DNA from: Sabellastarte sp. h YS-2021
Taxonomy: Eukaryota; Annelida; Polychaeta; Sabellida; Sabellidae
DNA: 64,000 bases
Assembly (NCBI GenBank): GCA_964017235.1
Contig: OZ024931.1
Span: 126,615,530-126,679,529 of the forward strand
Direction: 5' to 3'
Part shown: piece by piece, positions 2,128 to 49,015 of the stretch
Position numbering within the stretch: the first letter of the stretch is position 1
Layout of the letters: the number at the start of each line of letters is the position of its first letter
Translations under genes and position numbers: made by a program
Notes under the pieces: generated by a model
Told to the model about the DNA's origin: nothing
The model's database searches: none
Seen by the model: the letters and a program-made list of their open reading frames with translations, nothing else

Positions 2128-3489
2128 TTTTCACTCTTAATCAGGTTTTTCTTGGTGGACACATGGTCACATGTCCCAAAAAGCGTCATTTTGTGATCTC
2201 ACATGTGTAGGGATTCTTATGTCTAGAAAGGACCAAACTCCGTCATATGGCTACAAATGTCATAAAGGGCCTCGGAACACATTTTTTGTCCCTATTAGGA
2301 CTATTTTTCCACTTATACTGCTACAAGTTTCTCCTCCTCAGTCATAGGGGAGTTATGAGTATTTTTTATGAGGTATGTTGTCCAGTTTTGAAGGATATAC
2401 AACTCCTTACATCTTAGGATAGTAAAAGGTTTTTCAACCATACTTTTTCATATAAATGATGGTGGCAAGAAGGAGTGCTTATCCATGTTTTTTAAAAAAA
2501 AAATTGTGGACATGTGTTTTGTTTATTTTGAGTAAAATTTATAAATGCGACACAACAGTATTGATAAAAGCTGTTTATGAAATGATTGACAAAAGGGCGA
2601 TAACACCAGTGAGATGGGGATATCGCTGCATTTTTACAGTTTATCGGATGTGATAAGCTGGGAAGAGATGGCTACCACTAATATTTGAGGTAAATAAACC
2701 TTTACATGTACTTTATTTTCACATTGTTGGGATTTTCACGATTTATTACTAGTAAGTGAATGGGTGTGTTAACTCGTTGCCTTACAGTTGCATTCTTTCG
2801 TAGCCCGTTTCACACAAATTTTTATCTTCACTTCAGTGTTGATGACAGATCATACCAGTTCACTGCCTGTTTACTATGTTAGTAGATGGTGAGACTTGTG
2901 GAGTTAAAAGAACGCATCACAATTTACCAGTATATAGACCATTTTATTGCCTTGCTCTTTGAAATGGTTTATTTTCGACTCTGCTGGCATCAAAGGATAG
3001 TGAACCTGATGGCTGTAGTAGAAGGCATTGGGCGTCACCACTTATATACATTTGGTACATGGGAAAAAAATTTAAAAAGGCTCATCTTGTCTAAAGCCAG
3101 GGTTGGAACATGATTTATTAGATTGAATTAAGTTCCAATCCCAGGGCCTTTAATTTGGATTGCAGATTCGATGTTATGGTTACCGTAGATCTTTTACTCA
3201 AAACACATTCTCCAGCTAATGGTTTCTAGGAAGCCATTTTTCTGGTTGGCATCATGGCTTCATAGGATAAGACAATGCCATTGGGTTGTTTGTTTATAAG
3301 GTGACCCCAAGGCTATCTGCTAGGGTTCCAGAGATATCTTGTGATATCCCAGTTTTCTGTTCTCAAGTTCTCAGTGCTTTTTCAACATCTCTTGGGATGA
3401 ACTGGACAGTTTGTTTGGTCCTGTGGCCTGGATTCTTCAGGTGATGCATTCATAGCCAAAATCATTTGGCTTTTGAGGGTCCTTTGGCT
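2128..3489. other. No recognisable gene
   Basis: AT-rich sequence with only short open frames (2456-2653 and 2886-3113) that resemble nothing I recognise. There is no repeat structure and there are no convincing exon boundaries. Confidence 0.5.
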
Positions 3490-3665
3490 ATTTCACCCTG
3501 TGCTCATTCTTGCTTTGAAACCTTCTTTAGTTCCTTTTTGGGTGCAAGATAAGTCTCTCTATCCAGTGAGATCCTTGAGATATTATCTTGATAAGACAAA
3601 AAATCTCGGGAAAGGCAAGAAACTTCTTTTTGTAGCTATAAAGGAGGGCTAATCAAAGATATAGG
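3490..3665 (+). pseudogene. Fragment of a DIRS-type tyrosine recombinase
   Basis: One frame reads DKSLYPVRSLRYYLDKTKN followed by GKGKKLLFVAIKEG, matching the middle of the recombinases at 24200-24290 and 51585-51680. A stop follows directly. It is an isolated scrap, more decayed than DIRS-1 and probably an older family B or C copy. Confidence 0.75.
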
Positions 3666-12300: not shown

Positions 12301-13850
12301 CATGTCTTCCCACTAAGCTAACACATACATACCCAGATCTTTGAAATTCCGTCATTTCTGCATAATTATTGTCCTTCCTGCAGAGAAGCAGGAAGTGAGA
12401 TGACTCTTGTGTCACAAATCAGAAGCAATGTCACTTGTGCAGTTCATTTTCAGAAGAGCAGCATTTGACAATTAGAAACCAAAGAAGATATGTTTGGAAA
12501 CAGAAATTAAATTCATCCTTCTTGGGGAAGAAGTGGAGGAAGCATTCTCAGGCTCTCATTAAGACCTTGAAAATGCTGCTGAACATTTATATTCCTCTCC
12601 TCCATACCCCTAGCAATTACATTTTGAAGCATTGTCTCTGAAAATCCCCCAAACTGTCCCACCCACACCAGACACAGCCCTTTCAAATAAAATTCAAAAT
12701 AAAAGCCTGGGTTCTCAGTTAAACATCCAACTCCAGCTGTATATGGGGTTTCCCAGGCTTCCATTATGGAAACACTGCAGTCTCTTAGAGATGAGATTAA
12801 GGCAGTCAAAAAAACAAATTCTAAAGTAGGGGTGGATCACATCTCTGCTTTGGATCCAAAGCCTGGTCCAAGCAAACAGCCAGAGGACTTGCCTATATCC
12901 CTGAACAATCAACCCAACTCTAATCAGCCAAACACTTGAACTTCAGATGAATCCATGGAGACAGACTTTTATGGGCCTCCTTTACCACCACAGTTTGGTT
13001 AGACTTGTCCGTCCGAGATTGAATCAGATCTGAACTCTGAACAATCTGAGTGTGTCCCTTTAGTTAAGCCAAAGAAAAACTTGGATAACAGGAAACATAA
13101 GGTTCAGGCCAAATATGCCACTTCATCTTATTCCTCAGAGGAATCTGTGGCCTCTGTGCAAGTGCAAAAAAGTCTTCTTATCCTAAAGGCTTCTTCTGAA
13201 CAAGACAAACAACAAACAGACCCAGATCCTGTTTTGTATAGGGAAGAAGATATGTCTGACTTGCCCTCACAATGTACAGAGGACAAAGAAACTTTTAGGC
13301 AGATTTTAAATCTCCTGACCCCAGCTAGGAACACTCCGCCTAGATCCTCTACCACAATATGGGTTCTGGATGATGCAAAAAGACAACAGGAGCTTAGGCA
13401 AAGGGGGCCTTTAGCTATGCTCCCACTCAGTCTTTATCTCAAAGATGCCTTTAAAAAATTTGAACAGGACTTTCAGGTCGCTAATTTACAGGAGGGTAAT
13501 TCTATAAAATCCACTTCTTCCACTTCTAAGAGGACAAATTATAGGAATTGAACACAGTTTGCTGGTGGGCAAGGTTCCCTTACAGGTAGTTAAAGAGTTT
13601 GAGCATCAGGCGAGGCAAAATCTATTCACTCAATTTTTCAGCTACTTTCACTAAGACTGTATCTGAATGCAATACCACATTCGAAAAATACCAGGACAGT
13701 AGCAAGGCTATTGTTAAAAGAATTAAATGCCAACTTCAAAAGCGTTCCAATCCTGAAAAAGCAGCCAAGCGTGAAAAAAATCTCCTCTCAATGACTCCCT
13801 TAAAGCCTCCCTCAGTCCACCATTAGGAGGTTGCCTCGGAGTCCGTTCTT
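12301..13850 (+). pseudogene. gag-like pseudogene of DIRS-4
   Basis: The sequence tracks the gag of DIRS-5 (19478-21634) with many frameshifts and stops. Matching parts are the Cys-rich N-terminus (CPSCREAG near 12370), a PPTPDTALSNKIQ stretch near 12660, the segment of 13081-13551 (for example DLPSQCTEDKETFRQIL, matching DIPSQYSEEVDTFRRIL) and QKRSNPEKAAKR near 13740. The longest open part is 156 codons. No function is expected. Confidence 0.85.
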
Positions 13851-15690
13851 TCAAAAGAGACTGGCAAAGAGAAAAATGCACAAACAACGTGTTAAACATT
13901 ATTACCAATAGTTACATTCTACCATTCATCACAAAACCCAAATTAGTTCCCTTGATTCACTCAGGATACAAGGCCCATCAAAAAGATCTAGCTCTGGCCT
14001 CTTGTATCCAGACTCTTCTGTCAAAGAGCGCAATAGAAAGGGTGGAAAATGTAAACTCTCTCGGGTTTTACAGTTGCCTGTTTCAAGTGAAAAGGCTCAG
14101 TACCTTCCTACTTGTAGAAAGGTTCAAAATGGAAACTTCAGAGTCAATCAGGGCCTCTCTGATTCCAGGGAAATGGGTGTCATCAATAGACTTGTCAGAC
14201 ACCTATCTTCACATTACCATCCACCAAAACTCAATCAAGTACCTACAGTTTTGCCAAAATTCACAGGTGTTCCTGTTCACTTCCTTCTTTTTTGGCCTAG
14301 CCACAGCCCCACGTCTTTACAATGATTATGAAGGAGTGAAACTGATGGCCCTCAAAAGGGGAGTCAGACTTCACCAATATCTGGACAACTGGCTTATCAG
14401 GGCCCCGTCTCAGAAAGAAGCACAAGTAAACACTCAGATGGTTGTAGACCTGACACATTCCTTAGGGTGGATAATAAATCAAGAAAAATCCGAACTCAAA
14501 CCTACTCATGACAAGTGTTTTCGTTTGTGGGCTACGAAAAACACGTAGATTCAGCCCTTGTAAAACCCACTCAAGAGAGATTGTTCAAACTTCAGGATTT
14601 GATCCTATGCGTAAAGTCAAAATATGTTTTGAGGGGGCCACGTTGGCAGAGTGGTAACACTCTGGCCTCCAACCTCTGAGATCGGGTTTGGTTCCTGACC
14701 TCAAGTGAGAAAGCTGGTAGTTGCCTGCTGTTGGTTGGCAGTTTACAGTACAGAACTTTGACCAACTGTATGTACAGGTTTCCTCTGCCCTCGCAACTGC
14801 CCGTCATGATATGACCTGTACAGTGTTGAAAGTGATGTAAAACCCCAAATAAATAAATAAAAAAAATGTTTTGACTGCAAGATGTTTGATGTCGCTAATT
14901 TGGTTGCTCACCTTATTAGAGAAGATGGTCCTAGCGGGATGCCTTCAGATGAGGCCCTTTCAGTTTCACCTCAAGGAGCACTGGAGCACTCAAGAGTCTC
15001 CTTCCTTGGTTACAGACCATTTCAGCTCACCTAGATTGGTGGCGAAATTCCGCAAATGTGATGAAGGGTGCAGACCTTCACCCCAAAGACCATAGTATCC
15101 AAATCTTTACAGGCACCTCAAACGAAGGTTGGGGTGCTCAGAGCAAGTCTCTGCAAAAGGTCTGTGGTCAGACAAGGAAAAAAGACTACACATAAATGTC
15201 CTAGAGTTGAATACAGTATCTCTGGTTCTGAAAACATTCAAGGACCAGTGCCAAAACCAAACAGTGGTTGGTTGCTATGGACAACTTAACAGTAGTAGTC
15301 CACATAAACAAACAAGGAGGAACCCACTCGGCGGAGATGTGTGCTCTCAGTGAAAAATCATGATCTGGTGCCATCATTACCAGGATACCTGAATGTGATG
15401 GCTGACATGTCCAGGTTAAACCAAGTCCAGTCAAGAGAATGGTCACTGCATCACTTGTCTGAACCACAAAGTGCCATTGTATGTATCTCCAGTCTCAGAC
15501 CAACATGCTTGGGACATAGATGCTCTGAAGATAAACTGGTCAAGTCTCGCTGCTTATGCTTACCCTCCCACTGCTCTCCTTCACAGGGTGATCCAAAAAC
15601 AGACCATCATCATTGTAATAGCCCCAGGCTGGCCAGGAATGCCCTGGTTTGAGACCTATTGCAGCTCTCAACAGACATCCCACTCCAGTT
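13850..15690 (+). pseudogene. RT/RNase H pseudogene of DIRS-4, split by a SINE
   Basis: From about 13889 the frame reads NVLNIITNSY and continues through the RT palm. The catalytic motif reads YLDNW at about 14380, where DIRS-5 has YLDDW, so the second Asp is lost. The 3' half after the SINE (14875 on) carries RNase H remnants in several frames. Frameshifts, the Asp loss and the insertion make it inactive. Confidence 0.87.
14633..14865 (+). mobile_element. tRNA-derived SINE inserted in DIRS-4 RT
   Basis: The 5' part holds a good RNA polymerase III A box (TGGCAGAGTGG) and a degenerate B box (GGTTTGGTTCC, one change from the canonical core). The middle is a conserved body, and the 3' end is an AAATAAATAAATAAAA tail. 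The duplicated target is ATGTTTTGA, just before the start and at 14866-14874. The uninterrupted target can be read in DIRS-5 at about 22497-22512. A relative lies on the minus strand at 31804-32005. Confidence 0.88.
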
Positions 15691-19085: not shown

Positions 19086-19251
19086 TTTTATTACGCTACA
19101 ATAGCTTACCATGTGGGACTTGGTGCTGTTCTCGGGTTGCCACACCCGGGGCCAACGTCTTAGAAAAAAAGATCGTTCTTGTTAGCCACCGGATATACTG
19201 GTAGTTGTCATCACGTGATAACTTCTGACCAATCGCCCTACTTTCTCGTTG
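19086..19251 (+). repeat. Left inverted terminal repeat of DIRS-5
   Basis: Matches 25286-25469 in inverse, nearly base for base, from ACCATGTGGGACT inward to CCCTACTTTCTCGTTG. It presumably carries the promoter, since transcription has to start here to make gag; no TATA box stands out. Confidence 0.9.
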
Positions 19252-19477
19252 GCCACGATTGACTGGTAGCAGTTTGTAAATATACAGACATTTTCATTTA
19301 TTTCTCAGTATTCTCGTATTGTTGGAGGCTAATATTTGGATATTTCCTTAAATATATTTCATAGATTATACTGTAAAATTTTCAATTTCACAACTTAAGT
19401 ATTTTCCTTACAATCCGCGTGTTTTGAGTTTTCTCGGTTCAGGCAATTTCAATTGTACGTCTTTTTATTGCGTTAAA

Positions 19478-21634
19478 ATGTCGCTTCATCAAGCAAACAA
19501 AGACAAACCGAGAGCTCAGAAATGCCGCCATTTTTGCTTCAGTTTTGATAATCATAATTATTGCCCTACCTGTAGGGAGGCTGGCAAGGGAGATGACCCC
19601 TGTGTCACTTTTGAAGCACCCTGCCATATTTGCACGTCTCTCTCTGATGAACAATTGCAAAAAATTCAAAACAGGAAGCGGTACTTAAAAAAGCAAAAAG
19701 CGGAAACTAGTTCCAAAGATGAACTAGATCTCTTGGGTGAAGGCGATGGGGACTCTTTTACTGGTTCTAATGCAGACCTTGAGAGTGCTGCCGATAACCT
19801 CTTTACCTCACCCCCCCGTCCTCAACCTCTCGCCTTCAGTTCTTTATCACTAAAGACCCCAGCAAAAGCTGTCCCTCCCACCCCAGGTACTGCTCTGCAA
19901 AACAAAATTCAAAAAAATCTAGAGAAATCCCTGGGTGATTCCTTAAATATACATATCCAGCAGCAAATGGGTTCCTTCCAGGCATCCATGTTAGAAGCAT
20001 TTCAATCACTCCGAGAGGAGTTGGCAGTTAAAAAGCCTGCCGAGGTTGATCCCTCGCCTCATGCTTCAAAAGCTGGTCCATCCAGCAAGTCTGCTGCTCA
20101 TCTGGACCTACCCCCTCCGAGGTCAAGTACTAATGCACAGCCCGAGGCAATGGATGTGGACGTTGGTCCAGCACTCCCTCCTCGACTAGTACTTAACCAA
20201 ACTTCCTCGGATCAGTACGTTGCCCCTTCTGAAGCTATACCGAAGGATTCCTCGTACTCACACAAAAAACAAAGCCACAGGCAAACAGTAGCACCGAGCT
20301 CTGCCTCGGATCAACTGGATGAGGATTCCGACGAACCTCGGATCCATCCTAGACCTAAGCAACACTCTGACAAGAGCAAGCATAAATCTAGGTCCAGATA
20401 TGTGTCATCTTCAGAGCAAGATCACTCCCCTGTGGCCAGACACAGGTCTTCTAAGCCCTCTAGGGCTCAGCCCTCAGGAGTAGCTTCTGATCAAGACCTC
20501 CCACAACATGATCCAGACCCCCCTTATTATAGGGAAGTAGCTTTGTCTGACATTCCCTCACAATACTCTGAAGAAGTAGACACCTTCAGGCGTATTCTAG
20601 CTCTCCCTGACCCCAGGGAATCTATGCCCAGGTCGTCCACTTCAGTATTAGGTCTGGATGATGAAAAAGGCCGTCAAGAGCTCAGACCTAGAGGTCCTTC
20701 CTCTATCCTTCCACTTAGCTCAGTTATCAAGGACACCTTTGATAAATTCCAACATGACTTTAAGGCTGCCAATTTATCTGAGGGAAAATATGTCAAGCCT
20801 CCTCCTTCCACTTCAAAGTGGTACAAGGTGGGACAGCCAACTTTTCAGGACAAAATTCAGGAGTTGAATACGGACTTTACAAAGATCTGTATTACTCCTA
20901 GACCTCCTGGGGCACCAGTAGCCAAAGTCCCTCTGCCAGTCCTTAAGGAGCTGGAACATCAGGCTAGACAAAATATTTCTACCCTCAATTTCACCGCTGC
21001 CTTTGCCGAAACCTCTTCTTGCAATGCGTCCTTGGAAAAGTGCCAACATAGCATCAAGTCAACTGTCAAGAAGATAAAGTCTCAGATCCAGAAAGGTGCC
21101 AATCCTGAGAAAGCAGCAAAGCGCGGATATGAGGAAGTTGCTGAGTACTTAGATTTTTGGAACAAGACAGTTCTTGTTCAACATAGAGCTCTTACCTGTC
21201 TCAGCAAATCGCTAGCCCATATTCTCCAGAGGGAATTATATTCCATGGCTAATACCGGCTTGCTTAGGCGCGAAGCCGAAATGACTCTATTGCATCCCCA
21301 GCTAGGGGAAACGAGACGCCAAGAACTTAGGAAGTCGTCCTTCTGGGACTCCTCCTTGTTCGAGTCTCAACTTGTAAAGGAAGGTGAGGAATTCCTTCTC
21401 AAAAAAGGCACCTCAAAAGATTCTCAGGGTTTTGCACCCTATCAGAATAAGCCCTTTCGTGGCCCCCACAAGAAAAGAGGCTCCTACAGGAAACGCCCCT
21501 ATGGGGGCAATACCTCTCAAAGCAGTAACCAATCCTTTCCCTCGGGAAGAGGAAAATCCAACTTCAGAGGCTCCAGGGGTCGTTTTCGACCCCACAATAG
21601 GGGAAGGGGGCGTGGAAACCCCCCTTCCCAATGA
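19478..21634 (+). CDS. gag-like protein of DIRS-5
   Basis: Open frame of 718 codons from the ATG at 19478. An in-frame ATG at 19424 would add 18 residues, but the later start heads the segment conserved with DIRS-7. The N-terminus holds a Cys/His cluster (CRHF, H..YCPTCREAG, DDPC, CHIC) whose spacing is shared with the DIRS-7 gag, so it is a likely zinc-binding module. The middle is Ser/Pro-rich and low in complexity. A conserved region (DIPSQYSEEVDTFRRIL to ANPEKAAKRGYEEV) follows, and the C-terminus is Arg/Gly-rich (RGSRGRFRPHNRGRGRG), suited to RNA binding. Its role as the nucleocapsid-like structural protein is inferred from position. It ends with TGA followed by C, and the same frame continues open beyond it. 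Confidence 0.88.
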   Translation: MSLHQANKDKPRAQKCRHFCFSFDNHNYCPTCREAGKGDDPCVTFEAPCHICTSLSDEQLQKIQNRKRYLKKQKAETSSKDELDLLGEGDGDSFTGSNADLESAADNLFTSPPRPQPLAFSSLSLKTPAKAVPPTPGTALQNKIQKNLEKSLGDSLNIHIQQQMGSFQASMLEAFQSLREELAVKKPAEVDPSPHASKAGPSSKSAAHLDLPPPRSSTNAQPEAMDVDVGPALPPRLVLNQTSSDQYVAPSEAIPKDSSYSHKKQSHRQTVAPSSASDQLDEDSDEPRIHPRPKQHSDKSKHKSRSRYVSSSEQDHSPVARHRSSKPSRAQPSGVASDQDLPQHDPDPPYYREVALSDIPSQYSEEVDTFRRILALPDPRESMPRSSTSVLGLDDEKGRQELRPRGPSSILPLSSVIKDTFDKFQHDFKAANLSEGKYVKPPPSTSKWYKVGQPTFQDKIQELNTDFTKICITPRPPGAPVAKVPLPVLKELEHQARQNISTLNFTAAFAETSSCNASLEKCQHSIKSTVKKIKSQIQKGANPEKAAKRGYEEVAEYLDFWNKTVLVQHRALTCLSKSLAHILQRELYSMANTGLLRREAEMTLLHPQLGETRRQELRKSSFWDSSLFESQLVKEGEEFLLKKGTSKDSQGFAPYQNKPFRGPHKKRGSYRKRPYGGNTSQSSNQSFPSGRGKSNFRGSRGRFRPHNRGRGRGNPPSQ

Positions 21635-23690
21635 CTCCTCCAAAGCCTCACTCAGTCCACCAGTAGGAAGTCGCCTCCGTTCTTTCAAGAGAGACTGGCT
21701 AATAAACAAATGTTCTCAAAACGTGTTAAACATTATCACCAATGGCTACGTTCTGCCATTCCGTTCAAAGCCAAACTTGATCAGATTTCCTCTGATTCTA
21801 TCAGAGTACAAGGCCCAACCAAAAGACCAAGCCTTGGCCACTTGTATCCAGTCTCTCTTGTCAAAGAACGCCATCGAAAGGGTGGAAAACGTAAAATCTC
21901 TCGGGTTTTACAGTCGCCTGTTCCTAGTACCCAAGCCTCACCAAAGGTGGAGGCCAGTCATAGACTTAAGCAGGCTCAACACTTTTCTACATGTAGAAAA
22001 GTTCAAAATGGAAACCCCGGAGTCCATCAGGACTTCCCTGGTCCCAGGGGAGTGGGTATCGTCGATAGACCTGTCGGAGGCATACCTTCACATCCCCATC
22101 CATCCAAACTCAAGGAAGTACCTAAGGTTTTGCTACAAGGCCCAGGTGTTCCAGTTCACCTCCCTACCTTTCGGACTGGCCACAGCCCCCCAGGTCTTTA
22201 CGATGATCGTAAAGGAAGTGAAACTAATGGCCCTCTCAAGAGGACTCAGAATTCACCAATACCTGGACGACTGGCTGATCAGGTCCCAGTCCCAGGAGGA
22301 ATCTCAAAGGGACACACAGGCAGTGGTAGACCTAACCCAATCCTTGGGTTGGATAATCAACCAGGAAAAATCAGAACTGAAACCCACTCAGGTGTTTTCG
22401 TTCGTGGGCTACGAATACCACCTAGATTCAGCCCTTGTAAGACCCACTCACAAGAGATGGCTCAAACTTCAGGATTTGATCCTACGACTCAAGTCAAAAT
22501 GTGTCTTGACTGCAAGATGTTTGATATCTCTAATTGGGTTGCTAGCCTCAATGGAGAAAATGGTCCCGGAGGGACTCCTTCACATGAGGCCCTTTCAGTT
22601 TCATCTCAAGGAGCACTGGAGATATCCTCAGTTGCTGGACAACCTCCTTCCTTGGACAGAAGCCATTGTAGCCCACCTAGATTGGTGGCAAAACCCCACA
22701 AATGTGATGAAAGGCGCAGACCTTCATCCCAAGGACCACAGTATCCAACTCTTTACCGACGCCTCAAACGAAGGTTGGGGCGCTCACTTAGATCAAAATT
22801 CTACAAAAGGGCTGTGGTCAGAGCGGGAAAAAAGGCTACACATAAATGTCCTAGAATTGAAGGCGGTCTCCCTGGCCCTTCGAGACTTCAAGGACCAGTG
22901 CCAGAATCAAACAGTGTTAGTTGCGACGGACAACTCAACAGTGGTAGCCTACATCAACAAGCAAGGGGGAACTCACTCAGCAGAGATGTGCGCTCTCCTG
23001 TGGAAAATCATGACCTGGTGCCATCACTACCATATAACATTGAAAGCCAGGCACATTCCAGGGTGTCTGAATGTGATGGCCGACCTCCTATCCAGGTCCA
23101 ACCAAGTGCAGTCAACAGAATGGTCTCTGCACCCTCAGGTCTTCAAGCAAATCTGCCGGAAGTGGTTCACCCCTCATGTAGACTTATTCGCCACTCACCT
23201 GAATCACAAACTCCCTCTATATGTGTCTCCTATCCCAGACCCAAGGGCCTGGAACATAGATGCTCTGAACATAAACTGGACCAACCTCACGGCCTACGCC
23301 TACCCTCCTACGGCTCTCCTTCACAAGGTGATCCAAAAGATCAAGCAATGCCATTGCCTGATCATCGTGATAGCCCCAGGCTGGCCAGGGATGCCCTGGT
23401 TTTGGGACCTAGTGCAGCTCTCAACAGAGATCCCACTACAACTCCCAGTGTCAAGGACCCTACTCAAAAAGTCCCACAACTATGTGTTCCACAACAATCC
23501 ACAACAGCTGAACCTCCACGCCTGGTGTCTAGGAGCGGACAACTCCAAGAAGAAGGCTTCTCTGTGGAGGTGGCAGAGAGAATTGCTGCCCCTCAGCGGT
23601 CATCAACAAGGACCATCTAAAAGTCAAAGTGGGCCCTATTTGAAAAATGGTGCAGAGAAAATTCGGTGGATTTCTCCACTCCATCTGTGA
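21384..23690 (+). CDS. Reverse transcriptase / RNase H polyprotein of DIRS-5
   Basis: Open frame of 768 codons in the +1 frame relative to gag, overlapping gag by about 250 bases. The conserved part starts near 21690. Visible motifs: LVPKPHQRWRPVIDLSRLN, VSSIDLSEAYLHIPI (first catalytic Asp), LPFGLATAPQVF, and YLDDW at 22260 (residue 293). RNase H follows with FTDASNEGWGAHL, ELKAVSLAL, ATDNSTVVAYINK and ARHIPGCLNVMADLLSR, giving its Asp, Glu, Asp and late Asp. The C-terminal segment NHKLPLYVSP...APGWPGMPWFWDL is shared with the other DIRS copies. All catalytic residues are present. The true start is unclear; it may be reached by frameshift from gag. Confidence 0.93.
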   Translation: MRNSFSKKAPQKILRVLHPIRISPFVAPTRKEAPTGNAPMGAIPLKAVTNPFPREEENPTSEAPGVVFDPTIGEGGVETPLPNDSSKASLSPPVGSRLRSFKRDWLINKCSQNVLNIITNGYVLPFRSKPNLIRFPLILSEYKAQPKDQALATCIQSLLSKNAIERVENVKSLGFYSRLFLVPKPHQRWRPVIDLSRLNTFLHVEKFKMETPESIRTSLVPGEWVSSIDLSEAYLHIPIHPNSRKYLRFCYKAQVFQFTSLPFGLATAPQVFTMIVKEVKLMALSRGLRIHQYLDDWLIRSQSQEESQRDTQAVVDLTQSLGWIINQEKSELKPTQVFSFVGYEYHLDSALVRPTHKRWLKLQDLILRLKSKCVLTARCLISLIGLLASMEKMVPEGLLHMRPFQFHLKEHWRYPQLLDNLLPWTEAIVAHLDWWQNPTNVMKGADLHPKDHSIQLFTDASNEGWGAHLDQNSTKGLWSEREKRLHINVLELKAVSLALRDFKDQCQNQTVLVATDNSTVVAYINKQGGTHSAEMCALLWKIMTWCHHYHITLKARHIPGCLNVMADLLSRSNQVQSTEWSLHPQVFKQICRKWFTPHVDLFATHLNHKLPLYVSPIPDPRAWNIDALNINWTNLTAYAYPPTALLHKVIQKIKQCHCLIIVIAPGWPGMPWFWDLVQLSTEIPLQLPVSRTLLKKSHNYVFHNNPQQLNLHAWCLGADNSKKKASLWRWQRELLPLSGHQQGPSKSQSGPYLKNGAEKIRWISPLHL
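21635..23617 (+). CDS. Open frame antiphase to RT/RNase H, leading into the recombinase (possible dual-coding extension)
   Basis: The gag/recombinase frame is open without a stop from just after the gag TGA to the stop at 23618, about 660 codons across the whole RT/RNase H core. First ATG is at 21710. The product would be Pro, Ser and Arg-rich without a known domain until the last 40 residues, which read EEGFSVEVAERIAAPQRS and are the genuine start of the recombinase domain. DIRS-7 has the same arrangement. Overlap of RT and recombinase frames is known for DIRS1-like elements, but whether the upstream part is translated is inference. It could be open only because of codon bias in RT. Confidence 0.45.
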
Positions 23691-24700
23691 AACAAATCTC
23701 AGATTTTTTCATGTACCTGTACCAAGACTTAAACAGGCGCCCCTCGACCATTGATGGCTACAGGACTGCTATCGTTGACACTTTGGGCCCAACGGCCCAA
23801 CACATTGCGCACAATGCAGACCTTCATAGGTTACTCTCCAGTTTTCACAGGGATCGTCCTAAAAGTTCCAGAAATTTACCCAAGTGGAACCTTTCTGTTG
23901 TCCTTAACGAGCTCACCAAAGCACCATTTGAGCCCATGAAAGACACAGACCTCAAACATCTTACTCTAAAAACTGCTTTCTTGCTAGCCTTGGCCTCCGG
24001 CAAGCGCCGCAGCGAAATCCATGCCTGGGTCGCTAACAAAGTAGCTAATTTAGGCCAATGGGAAAAGGTCGCCTTGTTCCCTTCTTCTGATTTCATAGCC
24101 AAAAACCAACTAGCAAGAGAAGGTTCTCAAAGTGTGTCACCAGTGACTATCCCTGCTTTGACTACCATTGTAGATAGACAGTTTAAGGAAGACAGGACCC
24201 TGTGTCCCGTGCGGGCCCTGAGGTTCTATCTGGACCGAACTAAAGACCTGAGAGGGTCTCGTTCTCTCCTTTTCATCTCCTTTAAGAAAGGACATACCTC
24301 AGACATCAGACCCGCTACACTCTCCTCATGGTTGAAACAAACCATTCTACTTTGTTACAAACAAGCAGATCAACAAGCCTTGGACTTGGTCCAAGTCAAA
24401 GCGCATGACATCCGGGCCTTCGCGGCCTCTAAGGCCTTTTACGGTGGAGTATCGGTGGACCAAATCATGCAAGCCTGTCACTGGAAAGCTCACAACACAT
24501 TCACAAATTTTTACCTAAAAGACCTTACTTGGTCGGACACCGACAACAATATGTATCTGGGACCCGTAGTGGCGGCACAACAAGTCCTAGATCCTTCCCC
24601 TCAGACCAGTTGTCCTCGGAAAGAAAAAAGGGGGGGGGGGGGGGGGGGGGGGGGCACATCCGCTACTACCAAGTCTTCAGGAGTCTCTCCCAGGATCTAG
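23621..24700 (+). pseudogene. Tyrosine recombinase of DIRS-5, cut by one nonsense codon
   Basis: The stop TAA at 23618-23620 replaces a Tyr codon. The same site is TAC in DIRS-4 and TAT in DIRS-7, within the conserved (I/V)YKSKWA. From the next ATG at 23666 the frame runs 344 codons and overlaps RT by 25 bases. The catalytic set is complete: Arg in SGKRRSEIHAW (about 24000), His and Arg in AHDIRAFAASKAF (about 24405), the HWKAHNTF box, and the nucleophile Tyr in NFYLKD (about 24510). An internal start would lose part of the N-terminal core-binding domain. The C-terminus runs into a Gly-rich tail encoded by the run of G at 24630-24654. Confidence 0.9.
24619..24654 (+). repeat. Polypurine run ending in 25 G
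   Basis: GGAAAGAAAAAAG followed by G to 24654. It lies inside the last codons of the recombinase frame here, but after the recombinase stop in the DIRS-1 copy. Length is likely unstable and may also be misread in assembly. Confidence 0.8.
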
Positions 24701-25128
24701 GTATTCCTTTACCTTCAAGATGTTACGGGTAAGGTCATTTTATTTTTTAATTACCAGGTAATTTCTATTAAGGACTTAGTCAGTTGTCGTTAATCTCATC
24801 TGTCAAGTTAAAAATTTCTTGAGATGCCCAACCACTGGGTTGGTCAGTCACACGTGAAGGTCCACTAGGGACCCTTAGACCTCGAAGTGAGCACCGCTGC
24901 ACTTCCGTCCTACTACCAAACATCTGGACAGTTTTAGCACTGTCCCTCTTTACTTAGGTTTTTGGCTCGTTACAGGCCCGATCTTCGGGATCGGGGCGCT
25001 GTAAAAGGGACTCAGACTGGCATTTCTGGCACTATTCTGTATATATTAATTCAAAATCTTAGAAAAAAATGACATATCTTCCAGTCTCAGCTGTAATCCC
25101 ACCACCGGGCGGTTGAATTCAGCACCAA

Positions 25129-25222
25129 GTCCCACATGGTAAGCTATTGTAGCGTAATAAAATTGAAAATTTTAATTACTTAAATGTAGCTTTTATAAGC
25201 TACAAGCTTACCATGTGGGACT
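25129..25222 (+). repeat. ICR of DIRS-5
   Basis: TCCCACATGGTAAGC, the joint GTAATAAAATTGAAAATTTT, then GCTTACCATGTGGGA. It equals the reverse complement of the left end followed by that of the right end, so it records the circle junction TTTTCAA/TTTTATTACG. GAATTCAGC stands just before it. Confidence 0.92.
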
Positions 25223-25285
25223 TAGGAGAGTCCCACCCTGCCTCCCCGCTGTTTACAGCTGAGGGGTAGGTTTAATAAAAAATTT

Positions 25286-25469
25286 CAACGAGAAAGTAGG
25301 GCGATTGGTCAGAAGTTATCACGTGACGACAACTACCAGTATATCCGGTGGCTAACAAGAACGATCTTTTTTTCTAAGACGTTGGCCCCGGGTGTGGCAA
25401 CCCGAGAACAGTCCCACATGGTAAGCTTGTAGCTTATAAAAGCTACATTTAAGTAATTAAAATTTTCAA
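25286..25469 (+). repeat. Right inverted terminal repeat of DIRS-5
   Basis: Inverse of 19086-19251 except for the outermost bases (CTTATAAAAGCTACATTTAA...TTTTCAA), which are specific to the right end. Confidence 0.92.
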
Positions 25470-26116
25470 ATTTGCAGTATTTTCTTTAGATATGTTTTTA
25501 ACCTACTTTTTACACCTTAACAGTTAACTTTGTACTTTAATTCTGAATACCACTTGCAGGACATAACTTTTGTATCCTTTTCTTCTTTAACTTCTAATCT
25601 GAAACTCAAAACACACAGTCAGCTGACACAGAGACCGTTCATGGGCACTGATTGCTTGTTTGTATTTATTTTTGAAAATATGACACTTTAAGTTATATTG
25701 TGATTTCACGAATCTTGTACATCCAGACATGGGGAAAGCCTCGCACACAGAGGAAGATGAGTATGTTATAGTAACAAGGAGAACTAGACATTGCGTCTCG
25801 ACGCAGTGTATCCCCGGACGGGACATAGTTGAGGCGTGAATGTGTCGGGCTTGAGCCTGTTTTCCTCGGGCAGTAACTGCTTGTCTGAGATGGCCACTTG
25901 GACCCTTGAATGGCTTTTGCTGGTCTGTATGCCAGTCCCGTGGTCCTGGCCAGTATCAGGGTCTAACCGGCTATAGGTGAAGCAATCCTGTGTAACCAGT
26001 TCCTGCAATCCTCTGTAACCGGTTCCTGGTGGCTCCACAGTTCTGCGAAAACTCATAGGAACTGGCAGGACTGGGCGAATTAGACTACATCTCAGTAGGG
26101 GTAGGCTTATATAAAA
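25470..26116. other. Short remainder of the 155-bp array, then no recognisable gene
   Basis: ATTTGCAGTATTTTCTTTAG and the following 30 bases continue the satellite monomer split by DIRS-5. The rest has no repeat or coding signal that I can name. Confidence 0.55.
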
Positions 26117-35190: not shown

Positions 35191-36480
35191 GCAGACATGT
35201 TTTTTCAACATCTCCAGATGTTTTAAGGAAAAGTGTGCATTATGACAGATTTTCAACCTTATATGTGGATATATTCAGTGTAGAAGTATTTACTACTGAT
35301 CAAGCACGGATTTACATTTAGAAATCTGCTGGAAACGCTCCCTAGTTGACTCAATTTAGTGTTGATGATAGGGCAGTAATCAACAAGAAATATAAAGACA
35401 GCCATTTTTTTCTAGTTTCCTCCCATTCAACCATTGTGTTGTTGGGGGCAGATCGACAATATTGAGGAATTATGAACACTATTTACAGGTATTTTTATCC
35501 GTGTCTTTTGTTTTGAATGAAATTCTGTAACCTTCCAGCTACAGTCACCATAGTAACGTCTTTCTAGTACTAAAATGGAAATCACGGAAAACTTCCGTCT
35601 ACGTAGTTTTGAACCTTGCAAGGAATTCCCCTTTGGAAGGTGCATTCTCTTCATCAGAGCGCACTGGTACAGACTTCTCTGCTGTAAAGCATCAGTCACA
35701 CCAGCCTAGCTCGAGTATTTTTCATCAGAAGCAAGATGAATTCTTCAGATTTCTTCAGAGTGCACTGGTCTAGACATCTTTGCTGTAAAGCATTAGTCGG
35801 CCGGTAAGCTTATATATATGTACATCTACATAGAAGGAATTCCATCAGAAGAACATGAAGTTTGAACTCACGTCTACTGTGATATCAGTCCCTCCCTTGC
35901 GGACCCGGCTTTGTTGTCGGTAGTGAGGGTTGTGGATGGCCAGTTCACTGGCTTTATCACGAAAGGAAGAAGGAATTTCATCTACAAGCATCAGCCGGCC
36001 GGCCAGCTTAAAGAATGCGACCTCTGACGTCATATCCAGTCAGCCAATCGCGTCCTTCCTTCCAACTCACGAACCTGGTCACGTGATTCCGAACAGGTCA
36101 CGAAGCTGGTCACGTGTTTTCATGGAACAGGAAGGTCGGAAGTGCGTTCTTCAGAATTCACGTCTACTGTGATTCCAGTCCCTGCTTTGCAGACCCGCCC
36201 TTGTTGTTGGTAGTGGGGTTCTGTGGACTGTAAAGTTGCCGGTGAAGCATCACACAAAGAACGCGACCTCTGACGTCATCTCCAGTCAGCCAATCGCGTG
36301 TCCTTCCGAACAGCAAGCTGATCACGTGACACACCGAACGACAAGTGCTTCTAAATATAGCTCACAAGGGCTTTCCCAGCAACTGTCAAATCTACGAATA
36401 AGACATACTTTTTAAAAGAAATACTTTATTAATGGAGGAAACCTACAGCCAGCTGAATTCAACACAAAAGATAGTTGTAA
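35191..36480 (+). other. DIRS-6 leader with an imperfect duplication and CRE palindromes
   Basis: There is no gene. A segment starting GAA(C/T)TCACGTCTACTGTGAT occurs at about 35864 and again at 36156, and each copy leads to ACCTCTGACGTCAT (TGACGTCA at 36025-36032 and 36271-36278). A smaller pair, CTGCTGTAAAGCAT and TTGCTGTAAAGCAT, lies at 35680-35800. The sequence is more GC-rich than its surroundings. Confidence 0.6.
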
Positions 36481-36494
36481 AATTGCTTTAGCAC

Positions 36495-36930
36495 AGAGTG
36501 TACCGACCGGTACCGGCTACACAGCCTTGTATACTTGCTTCAACAACTGGTTTCAGAGTGTACCGACCGGTACCTACTACACAACCCTGTACACTTGCTT
36601 CAACAACTGGTTTCAGAGTGGACCGACCGGTACCGGCTACATAGCCTTGTACAATTGCTTCAACAACTGGATACAGAGTGTACCGACCGGTACCGGCTAC
36701 ACAGCCTTGTATACTTGCTTCAACAACTGGTTTCAGAGTGTACCGACCGGTACCTGCTACACAACCCTGTACACTTGCTTCAACAACTGGTTTCAGAGTG
36801 TACTGACTGCTACCGGCTACACAGCCCTGTACACTTGCTTCAACAAGTGTCTTCAGAGTGTACCGACCGGTACCGGCTATACAGCCTTGTACACTTGCCT
36901 TGGCAACTGGCTACATATGGCTTCAAAGTA
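36495..36930 (+). repeat. 60-bp tandem repeat, about 7.5 copies
   Basis: GAGTGTACCGACCGG, TACCGGCTACACAGCC and ACTTGCTTCAACAACTGG recur every 60 bases exactly. Most units contain the palindrome CCGGTACCGG. Because 60 is a multiple of 3, two frames stay open (36527-37015 and 36535-37020), giving a 20-residue repeat of the type CFNNWFQSVPTGTGYTALYT. Conservation fits recent amplification; there is no evidence of a protein. Confidence 0.93.
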
Positions 36931-37019
36931 CCGGTTACAAACTACAAAGTCTACCGACCGGGTGCTGGCTACACAGTCCTTACTGTACAGTGCCTCACCC
37001 CAACTATTTGGCTAATATA

Positions 37020-37480
37020 GACCAGTAGCTAGTGTCTATGGGTGACTCCAGCCTACCAGTTTTTTGCCGGTTACAGAGAATTACTGTTCACAGTAAATTA
37101 CCGGTTATGGAGACAGAGTTGCCTAACACAAGATTAATTTGGTCACAGAGAGTTCTTAGACCACTCAGTGGTCCTGGTGATATGACAAGTGTCCTAAGCT
37201 ACTACCGGGCACGTTCTTCATCATGTCCGGCCAGGGGTCAGCCATCTAACAAATGACAATTGCTGTGTAAATGCTTCACCTTGCAGGATGCGGGCCTGGG
37301 GCAAGAGTCGGTTAAATGTTAAAGGTTGTGTGAGCCCCACCGGACTGGACCACAACAAGAACAGAGATACTGTTTACTTGGATCATTGTCATCAGACAGG
37401 ACCAGTGTCCGGAAGGACAGAAAATTTTCCCAAATGTCCCAAATGTGGTATGCATCTGCCTATAGGGTCTAGACTAAATC
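37020..37480 (+). pseudogene. Probable gag remnant of DIRS-6
   Basis: ACCGGTTA-rich sequence, with TTGCCGGTTACAGAG and TTACCGGTTATGG, resembling the base composition and the repeated CCGGT of the DIRS-7 gag (47100-47460). No clear protein alignment can be made by eye, so this rests on position and composition. Confidence 0.35.
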
Positions 37481-39290
37481 CGTTCGGGAACTTAGGAAGC
37501 CTTGGGGGCTGGACCCTAGGTAGTACAAATGTTGAAGGAAGGGTACACTATCCCTTTCCAGTCAAGACCAGGCTTGACAATGTCACCAAAAATTATCAAT
37601 TGCTATGTGCATCCGCACAGGGACCTAGTTTTGGTTAGAGACTTTAATACATCAGCTTATGGACAAGGTGCAGTGGAGCCAGTTCAAAATCTCTGGGCTT
37701 CTTCAACTTTTCTTGGTATCAAAACCACACACCGTTGGAGACCTATTCTAGGTTTGAGCAAACCTTTGGGAGACCATCAGGACCACCTCCAACAATGGGA
37801 GTAGTTTACCTCAATAGATTTCAAGGATGCCTACTTCCATATACCAATGGAGGAATAGCCCAGGACATATCAGATTTCATGTCCAGGGTCAAATGTACCA
37901 GTTCAAAGCACTGTCTTTCGGTCGGTCCACTTCACCCTTGAAGCTCACTGTAGTAGCAAAGGTTTTGAAACTGATGGCCATACATAAGGGTATAATAATT
38001 GGCCAGTACCTAGACGACTGGTTGATGAAAGCCACATCCCACCAGATTTGTCTCCAGCATACATAAGAGTGAGTAAAAATATGCCAAGTATTAGGTTGGC
38101 TGGTGAATTTAAAAAAATCGGAACTGGAACCAAGAGCAGGTCTTTGACCTTGTAGGTTACCAGTTCAACCTCAGGGCCGATCGGGTCCGACCTAAAACGG
38201 ACCTTTGGCAGAACCTTCAGGACAAAATACTAGAAATACTGTCAATACTGGCTTGTCCAGTCCAGCAGTTCATGTCTGATAGGTTTACTAACAGCCACAG
38301 GAAAGCAATTTCACCTAGGCCCACTTCATAAGAGACCCATACAGTGGCATCTCTCAAACATCTGGAGGGTACCAGAGTTTCTAGAAATGGTGATTCCAAT
38401 ACCAAGGTCATTGCACCCACATTTACAATGATGGCTGCAAGAGGATAATGTCCTTGCAGGCCCATCCTTACACCCAAGTAAAACATCTGCAAATGTTAAC
38501 AGATGCATCAAAAGAAGAGTGGGGCGCTCACTTAAACGAACGCACTGCAAGAGGCACCTGGTCCCCTCCGGAAAGCAAGTTGCATATCAGTTACCTAGAA
38601 CTCAAGGCAGCCTGTCTAGCCTTAAAAGAGTTAAATGCCTCTGCATACACAAGATAGTACTTGTAGGAACAGACAACACCACAGTGGTGTCAAACATAAA
38701 CAAGGAAGGAGGCATGAGGTCGGGCCCACCTTGTGCTTTACTATGGAGAATCTTGATCTGGTGCACCAGCAATCAAGTAACTCAAAGCCTGACACATTCC
38801 AGGCTGGCTGAGTGTGGTAGCAGACAGGGTACCCAGGCTAGGCCAGACCACCCTCATAAAGTGGTCTCTCCTTCAGGAGGTCTTTCAAGCATTATGCAAC
38901 AGGTAGCACTGGCCTTAAATAGACCTATTTGCCACTTGATTCTACAAGTTGCCTTTATTTGGGTCACCGGTGCCAGATCCCCTGGCCACAGCAGTGGATG
39001 CACTCAGTCTGTCGTGGCAGGATCAGGAGGCATACACCTTCCCTCTTTCAGCCATATTGGGCAAATGGTGATGTTGCAGGACTCCCCATGCAAGAGAATC
39101 ATTGTGATTGCTCCGGGGTGGCCCAACATGCCTTGGTTTTGGGGTCCAGGTGGCCATGTCCAACCAAATCCCACTGAGCTTGCCCAGCCTGTTGACACAA
39201 CCATTCCATCAGATCCTCACAGAAATCTGACAAATCCTAATCTCCATGCATGGCTTCTGGAGCCTCAGCAGTCGAGGGCTTCTCTGAGGC
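37480..39290 (+). pseudogene. RT/RNase H pseudogene of DIRS-6
   Basis: Pieces in different frames match the DIRS-7 enzyme: VHYPFPVKTRL near 37550, RWRPILGLSKPLG near 37735, FQVYQFKAL-like and LSFGRST near 37890, then GQYLDDWLMKA near 38005 with the catalytic YLDD kept. RNase H parts follow: LTDASKEEWGAHL (38480-38530), YLELKAACLALKEL, GTDNTTVVSNINKEGG (38660-38710) and VIAPGWPNMPWFWG (39100-39140). Several frameshifts separate them. Confidence 0.87.
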
Positions 39291-39620
39291 AGTGACAGCA
39301 AGAATTGAGGCCCCTCAATGGGGATCAACCAGATCAGTCTATGAGGCAAGTGGACCATTTGTTACAAATGGTGCATCACTAATCAAGTGAGCCTCAGGGC
39401 ACCCCCTGTAAAGTCAGTGGCTGACTTCCTTATGAAGACAGGAAGCTACAGCCCAGCACTATTGATGGTTACAGTTCAGCCATTGCTAAAAAACTGGGAA
39501 GTTGACCCTTTCAACATCAGCAAGTACAAAATCTCGCTCGTCTCCTGGATAGTTTCCACAGAGACAGACCCAAAAGCAGGAAGGGCATACCCTCCTAGAG
39601 CCTCTCACTGGTCTCAGAGT
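39290..39620 (+). pseudogene. N-terminal stub of the DIRS-6 recombinase
   Basis: The start of the recombinase (ARIEAPQ, VYEASGPF, PPVKSVADF, PALLMVTVQPLL in shifting frames) matches DIRS-1 at 100-400. It ends in the equivalent of PSWNLSL and then jumps to the sequence after the recombinase stop (GAGTAGGTCTG...GGGGCGACG, near 39620). About 0.85 kb, including every catalytic residue, is deleted. Confidence 0.8.
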
Positions 39621-46619: not shown

Positions 46620-48738
46620 ATGGCATCTCCGGGAGAGTTTAAAGGTCAGAGGAAGGGATCGTGTGGCCATATTATGGCAGCCTTTGACAATCATGATAAA
46701 TGTGCAAGGTGTCGCGAAAAGAAAGTAGGTCAGGATCCGTGTGTTCTGGGCAATGCTTGTGTGATTTGTGATGGTTTTTTCGACATCCAGAAAGAGCAGC
46801 TGGCCACCCCTTCCTATAAAATTAGAAAGGAACGCAAAGCAGGGTTACTTGTCTCCCCTAAATAGGTGACAGTCATTGGTAGTGTAGACGCGGAGGAAGA
46901 GTCTTTGGAGCCGTCTGCGCATGCTTCTACTTCCGCACCCCCGCTTCTTCTCAGCCTCAAGCTTTTGTTACTGCACAGCAATTTGAAGCAACGAACGATA
47001 AATGGACTGAGCAGTTTGCTCGTTATGAGGCTTTACTCTCTAGGGGCAACGTCTTTACTACGCCTAGATCTGCTGTTACAACTCTTCCATCTCAAGCCAT
47101 GATGTCATCTCAGCCTTTTGTCAACCCCTCTGCCCACCATACCGGTCCGGTAGTGGTTCCGGCATATAAGGGTACTGGCGCGACATTTGAGTCACAGTAT
47201 CAACCTAGAGTTCAAAACCCATCATGTCCGCCAAAGCTGTGTCTGATTCTGGTCCGCAGTTGTCTCATACCGGTTCCCCTGTCCTCATTCCTGGTCCGGG
47301 AGATGAGTCACAGGAGCCCTTTTTCCAACCGGTTCATCTTGATTCTTCTGCTAAACAGAAGCCTCCTTCCACGGATCCAACTCCTCTGCTCAAGAGTCAG
47401 AAGCTTACCGGTCAGGACACTACATCTACCGGTCATACCGGCTCTGCCCCCTATCCACCGGCACCGGCAGCAGGTGCTTCTTTGGTTATGTCTGATCAAA
47501 GCTACAGAGACTTGCCTCCACAAAAGTTGTATGAGGAACTGTCTGGTGATGAGGAGGAGTCTAATCTTGAAGAAGGTGAAGCATCCTCAAAAGTAGTTGA
47601 CCGGCAAGATCAGACGGAAGACATGACTTATCGAGAAACTGTGAGATCAGTCAGATCTTTTATGGGCTGGTCGCATATTCCGGTGTACGAGAGTGATTTG
47701 TCAGAGCCGGATAAATCCAACAACCCTTGGAAGGGCAAGAATCCAAAGAAGCCAGCCAGATTGTCTGTAGCTATGCCACCCGATGACTGGCTTTGCCAGA
47801 AGCTGGAGAGGTTAAATACAACAGTGGCCGAGGGATACCCTTCCAGGGCACAGGATTCCACAGGTCTGAAAAAGGACCAATTTGTAAAAATTCCTCATAG
47901 CCAAAGTAGATGGTACCAGATGCACACTTTGCGTCCTGATGGCCCTCACCGCCCGGGCAAGAGCCTTTTCAGTTGGAGTGACCAAGAGGCAAAGGTTAAT
48001 TCCCAGTTTCCTCGGTTGATCAAGGCATCTGCTTACTCTCCTTCAGGTCCTCCTTCCAGGCCAATATCTCAGGATTATTTGTGTCATTGGGAGAGGTGTG
48101 CTCGTGAGGGGAGCTATGTTGTCAACAGTGCTGCAGGTTTTAACAGGTGCTCCTCTGAATTGCATGAAAGGATCTCCTCGGGTGTTAGTTTTCTGCAGTC
48201 CAAGGTTAACAAGGGTAAGGCCCCTAAGGACTTCACAGACACTCTTAAGGATGTCAGGGATTATGTCGCCTTTCAGCAAAGTGTTTCAGTCGCCATGGGG
48301 ACAGCCCTCCAACATTTGGCGGACAGTTTGTTTGTGCACCTCTCCAACATCATCCTCCTGCGTAGGGATTCTTACCTCGAACATGTCAAGCCTGGTATTA
48401 AGCCTGACACATTAAACAACCTCAGGAATGGTCCCTTGTTTGGTCACGGTTTATTCCCAGACTCTGTGTTGGCCACTGCAGAGCAGGATATTGCAAGACA
48501 TGAGTCTGCTGGAGTCGCTCCAGGGCCTGGTCCGGGCGCCTCGCAGCGATCCAGCTGGAGGGGTAGTGCCAGGTATCGCCCCTATGACCATCAAGATAAC
48601 CGTCAGAGCTCGACCCAAGGAGATCAGGGTCAGCAGCCATGGAGGCAATTCTCAAGGAACAGGAACAGAGGTCGTGGCCGAGGTAGAGGTGGCAATCCTC
48701 GTTTCTCTAAGTCACGAGGCAACAAATCCTTCAAATGA
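46620..48738 (+). pseudogene. gag-like gene of DIRS-7, broken
   Basis: The start ACCATGGCATC at 46620 has a good Kozak context. The first 81 codons carry the same Cys/His cluster as the DIRS-5 gag (CGHI, H.KCARCREKK, QDPC, CVIC). A TAG at 46863 interrupts it, and the frame then shifts near 46945 and again near 47215. From 47224 one frame of 504 codons is open to the TGA at 48736-48738 and contains MPPDDWLCQKLERL and an RG-rich C-terminus (RNRNRGRGRGRGGNPRFSK). A product from an internal start is possible, but would lack the zinc-binding N-terminus. Confidence 0.85.
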
Positions 48739-49015
48739 CAGTTACTGTATAATTCAAAATCAGTCGGTCAGTCAGTTAAGTCAGTTGGACCGACAGGTAA
48801 AGCAGACTTTAGTCAAGGACACTTTGTTGGTAAATTCCAAGGACTTGAGTCACCAAAAGGTTGTTTGTTGTCAAAATGCTGTGAATCTTGTTCCTTCTGC
48901 AATTTTACTCGGGCAGCCTCAAAAGAAGGGCATAGGTCCCGCTCTGTAGATGAACAAAATAAAAGTTTCAAAGGTGCTCATTGTGTAAATCCATTGTCTT
49001 CTGCCCCTTCTGTTC

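Follow-up and report, generated by a model that had tools for sequence, protein, structure and literature searches.

A recombinase frame kept free of stops across the reverse transcriptase of Sabellastarte DIRS retrotransposons, with probable UGA readthrough from gag

A long overlap between the pol and tyrosine recombinase (YR) open reading frames (ORFs) has been reported for half of 28 DIRS1-like retrotransposons, with the catalytic part of YR in the non-overlapping 3' end (PMC3266345, in the passages covered). In Xenopus families the overlaps are mainly between ORF2 and ORF3 (PMC9210276, in excerpts), which also overlap in Dictyostelium DIRS-1 (PMC5633606, likewise in excerpts). Here, we analysed a 64,000-nucleotide (nt) stretch of genomic DNA, the window, from the annelid Sabellastarte sp. 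h YS-2021. It holds a DIRS-type retrotransposon, e1 (19086-25473; coordinates are window positions on the forward strand unless stated otherwise), and a second DIRS element, e2, at about 46.9-52.0 kb. As in the long-overlap elements of PMC3266345, there are Gag, reverse transcriptase/RNase H (RT/RNase H), a putative YR, inverted terminal repeats (ITRs) and overlapping internal complementary regions (ICRs); the passages of that account describe the overlap, whereas we have measured how it is selected, how it continues from gag, the lone UGA and the readthrough motif. The gag and YR coding regions lie in the same frame, which one UGA divides, and readthrough of this codon probably yields a Gag-extension-YR fusion.

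Tca2 of Candida albicans is a long terminal repeat retrotransposon. As in the elements described here, a UGA splits its gag from the next ORF, which in Tca2 is pol rather than YR, and a potential pseudoknot lies 3' of the stop (PMC2194720, in part). Type I readthrough of tobamoviruses, pomoviruses and benyviruses combines a stop codon, CAR-YYA and an open in-frame extension (PMC3542737, in the sections covered), and we found the same combination here; the viral stop is usually UAG, whereas ours is UGA and stands in a cellular retrotransposon whose extension is overlapped by an essential gene. The same sections credit CARYYA with the ability to stimulate readthrough at either UGA or UAG. In a reporter based on OPRL1, either stop followed by CARYYA gave about 15% readthrough, similar for both (PMC4132726, in part). 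Gammaretroviral Gag-Pol, also treated in PMC3542737, is like our proposal in that a gag stop is read through to give a Gag-enzyme fusion; it uses UAG with a pseudoknot, whereas in the annelid elements the readthrough enzyme would be the recombinase, with RT in another frame.

The gag-like ORF of e1 (19478-21634, from its first ATG) closes with a TGA at 21632-21634 followed by CTCCTC. In frame +1 to gag lies the RT/RNase H ORF (21378-23690), as expected of DIRS1-like elements, whose RT/RNase H is related to that of Ty3/gypsy; it matches the Pfam model RVT_1 (E 5e-19) and RNase H models (RT_RNaseH, E 1.1e-5). The gag/YR frame of this copy has stops at 21632 (TGA), 23618 (TAA) and 24698 (TAG), leaving 661 open codons at 21635-23617 that reach back to the gag stop. 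A preliminary description had reported both this open stretch and the RT/RNase H of the +1 frame, and both stand; it had passed over the single gag/YR frame split by one UGA, the readthrough motif of the relatives and the meaning of the stop at 23618. That TAA (23618-23620) cuts the extension from the YR body (23621-24700, in the frame of gag) and is private to the window copy among the eight e1 copies compared, being absent from all seven others (L002-L008; 40 of 7759 candidates were scored, and more than seven other copies exist). In six of these seven the frame is open from the gag TGA to the end of YR (1006-1028 aa), the UGA proposed as the readthrough point being the sole stop between gag and YR; L008 has two other stops. 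The recombinase with a long extension that had been suggested could be encoded by those six copies; in the window copy itself the extension is not joined to the recombinase.

None of 5000 synonymous permutations of the e1 RT codons left the gag/YR frame open (mean 22.1 stops, minimum 10), nor did any of 5000 for e2 (mean 26.1, minimum 12). Shuffles with gag plus YR codon usage gave means of 41.0 stops for e1 (minimum 23) and 36.7 for e2, and the third frame carries 57 stops over the open stretch of e1. The frame is also kept open in e2 and about eight related families of the same genome. Stop counts were made on the 25 of 46 loci that could be aligned without frameshift: each has 0-4 stops in the gag/YR frame (12 in total), against permuted means of 24-36 per locus, and the RT frame of the same loci has 7 in total, so decay is similar in both. 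The counts exclude the window copy (L001), the near-identical e1 copies L003, L004, L006 and L008, and loci that were frameshifted, decayed or unaligned (L011, L012, L014-L016, L024, L025, L031, L033-L035, L039-L042 and L044). Over the compared stretch, most pairwise identities among the e2-like families used are 66-82%. A protein search of the same genome with the e2 extension returned at least 72 matches; among the matches listed, which are the top-scoring ones and therefore biased towards open copies, 41 have no internal stop and many sit in frames of 1000-1160 codons. The preliminary description had warned that shuffled RT codons might leave the second frame open equally often, or that family members might carry scattered stops upstream, and neither was the case. 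Because the shuffles never open and the relatives lack scattered stops, the gag/YR frame is kept open by selection, and it very probably forms a translated segment of the recombinase product.

The codon that closes gag is TGA in all 37 loci where it was located by frame and gag tail (eight e1 copies including that of the window, and 29 e2-like loci), and in 45 of 45 when eight loci from a fuzzy motif search, which are not independent, are added; L031 is the one locus of the 46 in which the gag stop was not located. Directly after the TGA, 27 of the 29 e2-like loci carry CARYYA in the form CAATTA, CAATCA or CAGTTA, the remaining two having a G immediately after the stop. Across 37 e2-like loci, among them the eight from the motif search, the flanks of the hexamer are poorly conserved. 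The e2-like families have both the STOP-CARYYA hexamer of type I readthrough and an in-frame extension held open by selection; e1 is not filed under this type because it lacks the hexamer.

Substitution rates by codon phase provide a second line of evidence. Constraint follows the gag frame up to the UGA and then the gag/YR frame from +102 to +252, where third codon positions of that frame change fastest; further 3' it follows the RT frame across the RT core and returns to the gag/YR frame in YR. The interval from +102 to +252 falls within a Cys-rich module of 66 residues in the gag/YR frame of e2-like families, downstream of the gag UGA (in L010, on the minus strand at 3451-3648, oriented positions 1222-1419, and in its relatives). 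Among 12 loci of about six families, 27 columns of the module are invariant and 12 of these are Cys; e2 itself is damaged there, and e1 lacks the module after its UGA. In close pairs, changes that are silent in the gag/YR frame and alter RT (0.150) outnumber the converse class (0.058), an order that is reversed where the RT core begins (0.048 versus 0.170). None of three module sequences scanned had a Pfam match above the cut-off, and a profile search found no relative in PDB at E<=1. Together, the phase profile and the constraint on the module would be an independent sign of translation past the UGA.

Chance or base composition could in principle have opened the frame, since the strand is C-rich and T-poor, which lowers the frequency of stops. 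The permutations of each element's own codons preserve this composition, however, and never gave an open frame. A stop in the gag/YR frame arises only where the last base of an RT codon is T and the next two are AA, AG or GA; in eight representatives taken together, T occupies 3 of 389 such sites versus 28-67% before every other dinucleotide, so that its avoidance is confined to the sites that make stops. In the single-coding YR used as control, T stands at 129 of 281 comparable sites and 469 of 860 others. RT-silent changes that make a stop likewise numbered 1.5 per 154 opportunities (0.010) in four independent close pairs, versus 250.5 per 1733 (0.145) for other RT-silent changes that alter the extension. 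The permutations and the stop-specific avoidance of T leave this explanation a negligible probability, and we rejected it. A very different proposal is that the entire extension of about 600 residues is a functional protein under amino-acid selection, a strict form of the dual coding that had been suggested for e1. Against a permutation null held free of stops, the 21 e2-like pairs show about 2% extra identity (BLOSUM similarity z 0.8-3.4), local to RT alignment columns 180-240, 360-390 and 420-450 and negative in other stretches; seven pairs of e1 with e2-like elements show no excess similarity (z -0.9 to 0.2). In deep pairs, RT has about half the synonymous divergence of YR (for instance 0.79 versus 1.43 in L022-L037), whereas the two are equal in three of five usable close pairs (L043-L045, L022-L017 and L022-L013). 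RT is the lower in the other two, L010-L038 (0.197 versus 0.397, with a diverging YR tail in L010) and L005-L002 (0.013 versus 0.036, on few changes); pairs with a frameshifted YR (with L020, L030 or L023) and several gag values were omitted. Matched RT-silent C/T contrasts, taken across every pairing of seven e2-like representatives, show Leu-silent (123/358), Leu/Phe (160/442) and Pro/Ser (512/1528) differences to be equally frequent and stop-making ones to be rare (8/559). Rates are lower for His/Tyr (87/392), Arg/Trp (20/80) and Arg/Cys (63/347), and the rarity of His/Tyr and Arg/Cys in deep pairs would fit amino-acid selection, but Arg/Cys is the highest class in close pairs (17/106). In the four independent close pairs, moreover, RT-silent changes that alter the extension are about as frequent per opportunity (0.145) as those silent in both frames (0.130, from a small class of 9.5/73), and the extensions scanned with Pfam matched no family. 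The three approaches of constrained permutation, class rates and C/T contrasts thus returned weak or local signals only, and selection on amino acids along the whole extension is improbable. What stood of the dual-coding proposal is the selection for openness; two selected proteins along the whole overlap are not supported. Stops are banned, yet over most of the RT core the amino acids of the extension look nearly unconstrained, with perhaps a weak or local constraint. Protein-level constraint in the gag/YR frame is clear at the two ends, in the Cys-rich module of the e2-like families and in the YR N-terminus, where the frame becomes strongly conserved over roughly the final 50 codons of the overlap and the RT tail is simply carried along. 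This was measured on e2-like families, and by alignment the YR N-terminus of e1 lies at approximately 23540-23617.

The remaining alternatives concern how ribosomes enter the YR frame. In the usual annotation YR is a separate ORF3 that starts from an internal AUG within RT, the rest of the open frame being incidental; the Xenopus families, for example, were annotated by ATG-only ORF finding (PMC9210276, as excerpted), and AUGs in the gag/YR frame do exist in some families, such as e1, 25 codons past its UGA. Ten loci, partly non-independent, together contain one stop between the UGA and the first in-frame Met, where 64.8 are expected. L010, L037, L045, L046 and L009 run for 91-245 codons before their first Met, with 6-15 stops expected and a single one found, in L009; in L010, L037 and L045 neither a Met nor a stop occurs for 194, 223 and 245 codons, respectively, against 11-15 expected stops. 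The other five of the ten loci, with a Met within 25-38 codons, are uninformative on AUG entry. No ATG column of the gag/YR frame within the RT core is common to more than five of eight representatives, and the interval from the e1 gag start to 21710 contains 26 ATGs. AUG entry leaves the openness of the frame unexplained, and we regard a separate ORF3 as very unlikely. Non-AUG or IRES-like (internal ribosome entry site) initiation, or reinitiation after termination of gag, at or just past the UGA, would likewise demand a frame open from the UGA onward without a Met, and conservation of CARYYA alone would be compatible with another role for the sequence. The hexamer is a motif with a known role in readthrough, however, the frame is that of gag itself, and no notable fold was found 3' of the gag stop (z +0.86 in e1, -1.29 in e2). 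Such initiation is unlikely in our judgement, if somewhat less so than the internal AUG.

Several observations weigh against the readthrough proposal. The e1 family, the subject of the original observation, has TGA CTC CTC in all eight copies including that of the window, and its z value downstream of the stop gives no hint of structure. Read in the RT frame, the CARYYA motif encodes ND[N/S][Y/H], and this possibly contributes to its conservation. In deep pairs the contrast within the Cys-rich module is weaker (0.405 versus 0.298), and in one of its blocks, of 15 codons (alignment columns 75-90), it is the RT third positions that change fastest. The first Met comes early in L038, L022, L017 and L030 (codon 30-38; probability of an open run 0.10-0.36), and for the Met of e1, 25 codons past the UGA, the probability of no stop is 0.24; AUG entry in e1 alone is conceivable. 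Most e2-like loci were picked as best matches to the extension itself, which favours open copies, and the families compared, about eight plus e1, all come from one genome. Finally, the e1 of the window is a broken copy whose extension is not joined to its recombinase.

Weighing these points, we still consider readthrough of the UGA the likely source of a Gag-extension-YR fusion. The proposed DIRS element would keep its enzymes in separate frames downstream of a single gag, YR in the gag frame and RT/RNase H in frame +1. Ribosomes terminating at the UGA would yield Gag, and a fraction passing it, in the CARYYA context of e2-like families, would continue in the gag frame, cross the Cys-rich module (e2-like only) and some 600 codons overlapping the RT core, and end in YR. 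The product would be a low-ratio fusion like retroviral Gag-Pol, with RT reached by a separate route in frame +1. Selection would bar stops across the whole RT and be nearly blind to the amino acids of most of the overlap. Since the extension must stay open for YR to be made, the openness would reach back exactly to the gag stop. The shared frame, the single UGA, the selected openness, the conservation of the motif, the want of a usable AUG in several families and the protein-level constraint in the gag/YR frame soon past the UGA are established. That readthrough occurs, at what rate, and that its product enters Gag particles we infer from sequence; for e1, with its UGA-CTC, readthrough is suggested by homology, from shared architecture and openness. 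Going further, we lean towards a scheme in which the DIRS integration enzyme is made only as a Gag readthrough fusion, the 600-codon RT stretch being a translated spacer selected merely to be free of stops, with real constraint only in the Cys-rich module and YR.

As for entry into the RT frame, this frame is open over the last 198 nt of gag in all eight families, where synonymous permutation expects 1.2 stops in total (p 0.115). An RT-frame ATG at a Pro-Tyr motif of gag (Tyr codon TAT) is present in all eight representatives and in 11 of 12 loci (not L038), at 21501-21503 in e1 and roughly 150 nt upstream of the TGA that ends gag in e2-like elements; it is a possible RT start. GGT CCG GG, encoding Gly-Pro-Gly of gag about 200 nt before the TGA, occurs in 11 of 12 e2-like loci; in L010, L041, L043 and L045 it comes straight after the final RT-frame stop on its 5' side, and it could possibly be a +1 frameshift signal. 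A search of IMG/VR for relatives of the RT confirmed none.

The ITR arms of e1 (19121-19251 and 25286-25416) are 98% complementary. The terminus at 19086-19128 pairs with an ICR at 25120-25162 and that at 25410-25473, the right ITR end, with the right ICR at 25159-25222; the two ICRs overlap by four bases (25159-25162), as in DIRS1-like elements. A Pfam scan of the e1 gag-like ORF gave no match, and its translation is Cys/His-rich near the N-terminus, at about 19520-19650. The MT/DAM models, for an MT domain after RNase H, had no match at E<=1 in the e1 RT ORF. For YR, the Pfam matches (Phage_integrase, E 0.0065 in e1, and SAM-like) were all below the cut-off. The YR of the e1 copy L005 aligns with that of e2-like elements and shares an invariant H-x-x-R, which we take to be catalytic. 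A PDB profile search with YR found no relative at E<=0.1, and an AlphaFold model of it (mean pLDDT 35.8) was too low in confidence to use.

In e2, the gag-like ORF spans 47209-48738 from stop to stop, and its closing TGA (48736-48738) forms, with CAGTTA, the stop and CARYYA readthrough motif at 48736-48744. From the gag TGA up to the RT core (48739-49125) the copy is damaged by a TAG at 49123 and two RT-frame stops, and part of this interval is RT-like sequence read in the gag/YR frame. A damaged remnant of the Cys-rich module lies at approximately 48856-48984, the module being present in the relatives L010, L022 and L046. The RT/RNase H ORF, in frame +1 to gag, occupies 48989-50881, and directly downstream of the TAG a gag/YR-frame ORF of 952 aa (49126-51984) runs unbroken across RT and through YR (50884-51984, with a conserved N-terminus). 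Elsewhere in the window, 13003-14548 is a decayed fragment of an e1-like DIRS family with TGA CTC CCT at 13792, which suggests that the UGA-CTC context is common to e1-like families. From translation, 38432-39295 is a decayed RT-like fragment akin to e2, and at 36416-37020 a unit of about 20 codons (60 nt) is repeated, with two forward frames and one reverse frame open.

In the open literature covered (titles, the beginnings of abstracts, and passages of PMC3266345, of PMC12440569 on read-through transcripts, of PMC6681497 and of PMC8547959, with subscription reviews of DIRS elements outside this scope), we found no mention of readthrough in DIRS expression. The overlap itself is already known; its expression mechanism and the selection pattern we did not find described in those sources. 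RT/YR overlaps have been catalogued before, and in the parts of those accounts consulted the route by which YR is translated is not stated; UGA-CARYYA readthrough offers a concrete and testable answer. It would account both for the existence of the overlap and for its exact reach to the gag stop. The overlap would also be an uncommon example from nature of translation over a very long shared stretch where selection favours an open frame and not a particular protein sequence, and a useful warning for the detection of overlapping genes. If the proposal is true, one weak UGA sets the ratio of Gag to recombinase in these elements, and RT is delivered through a separate frame.

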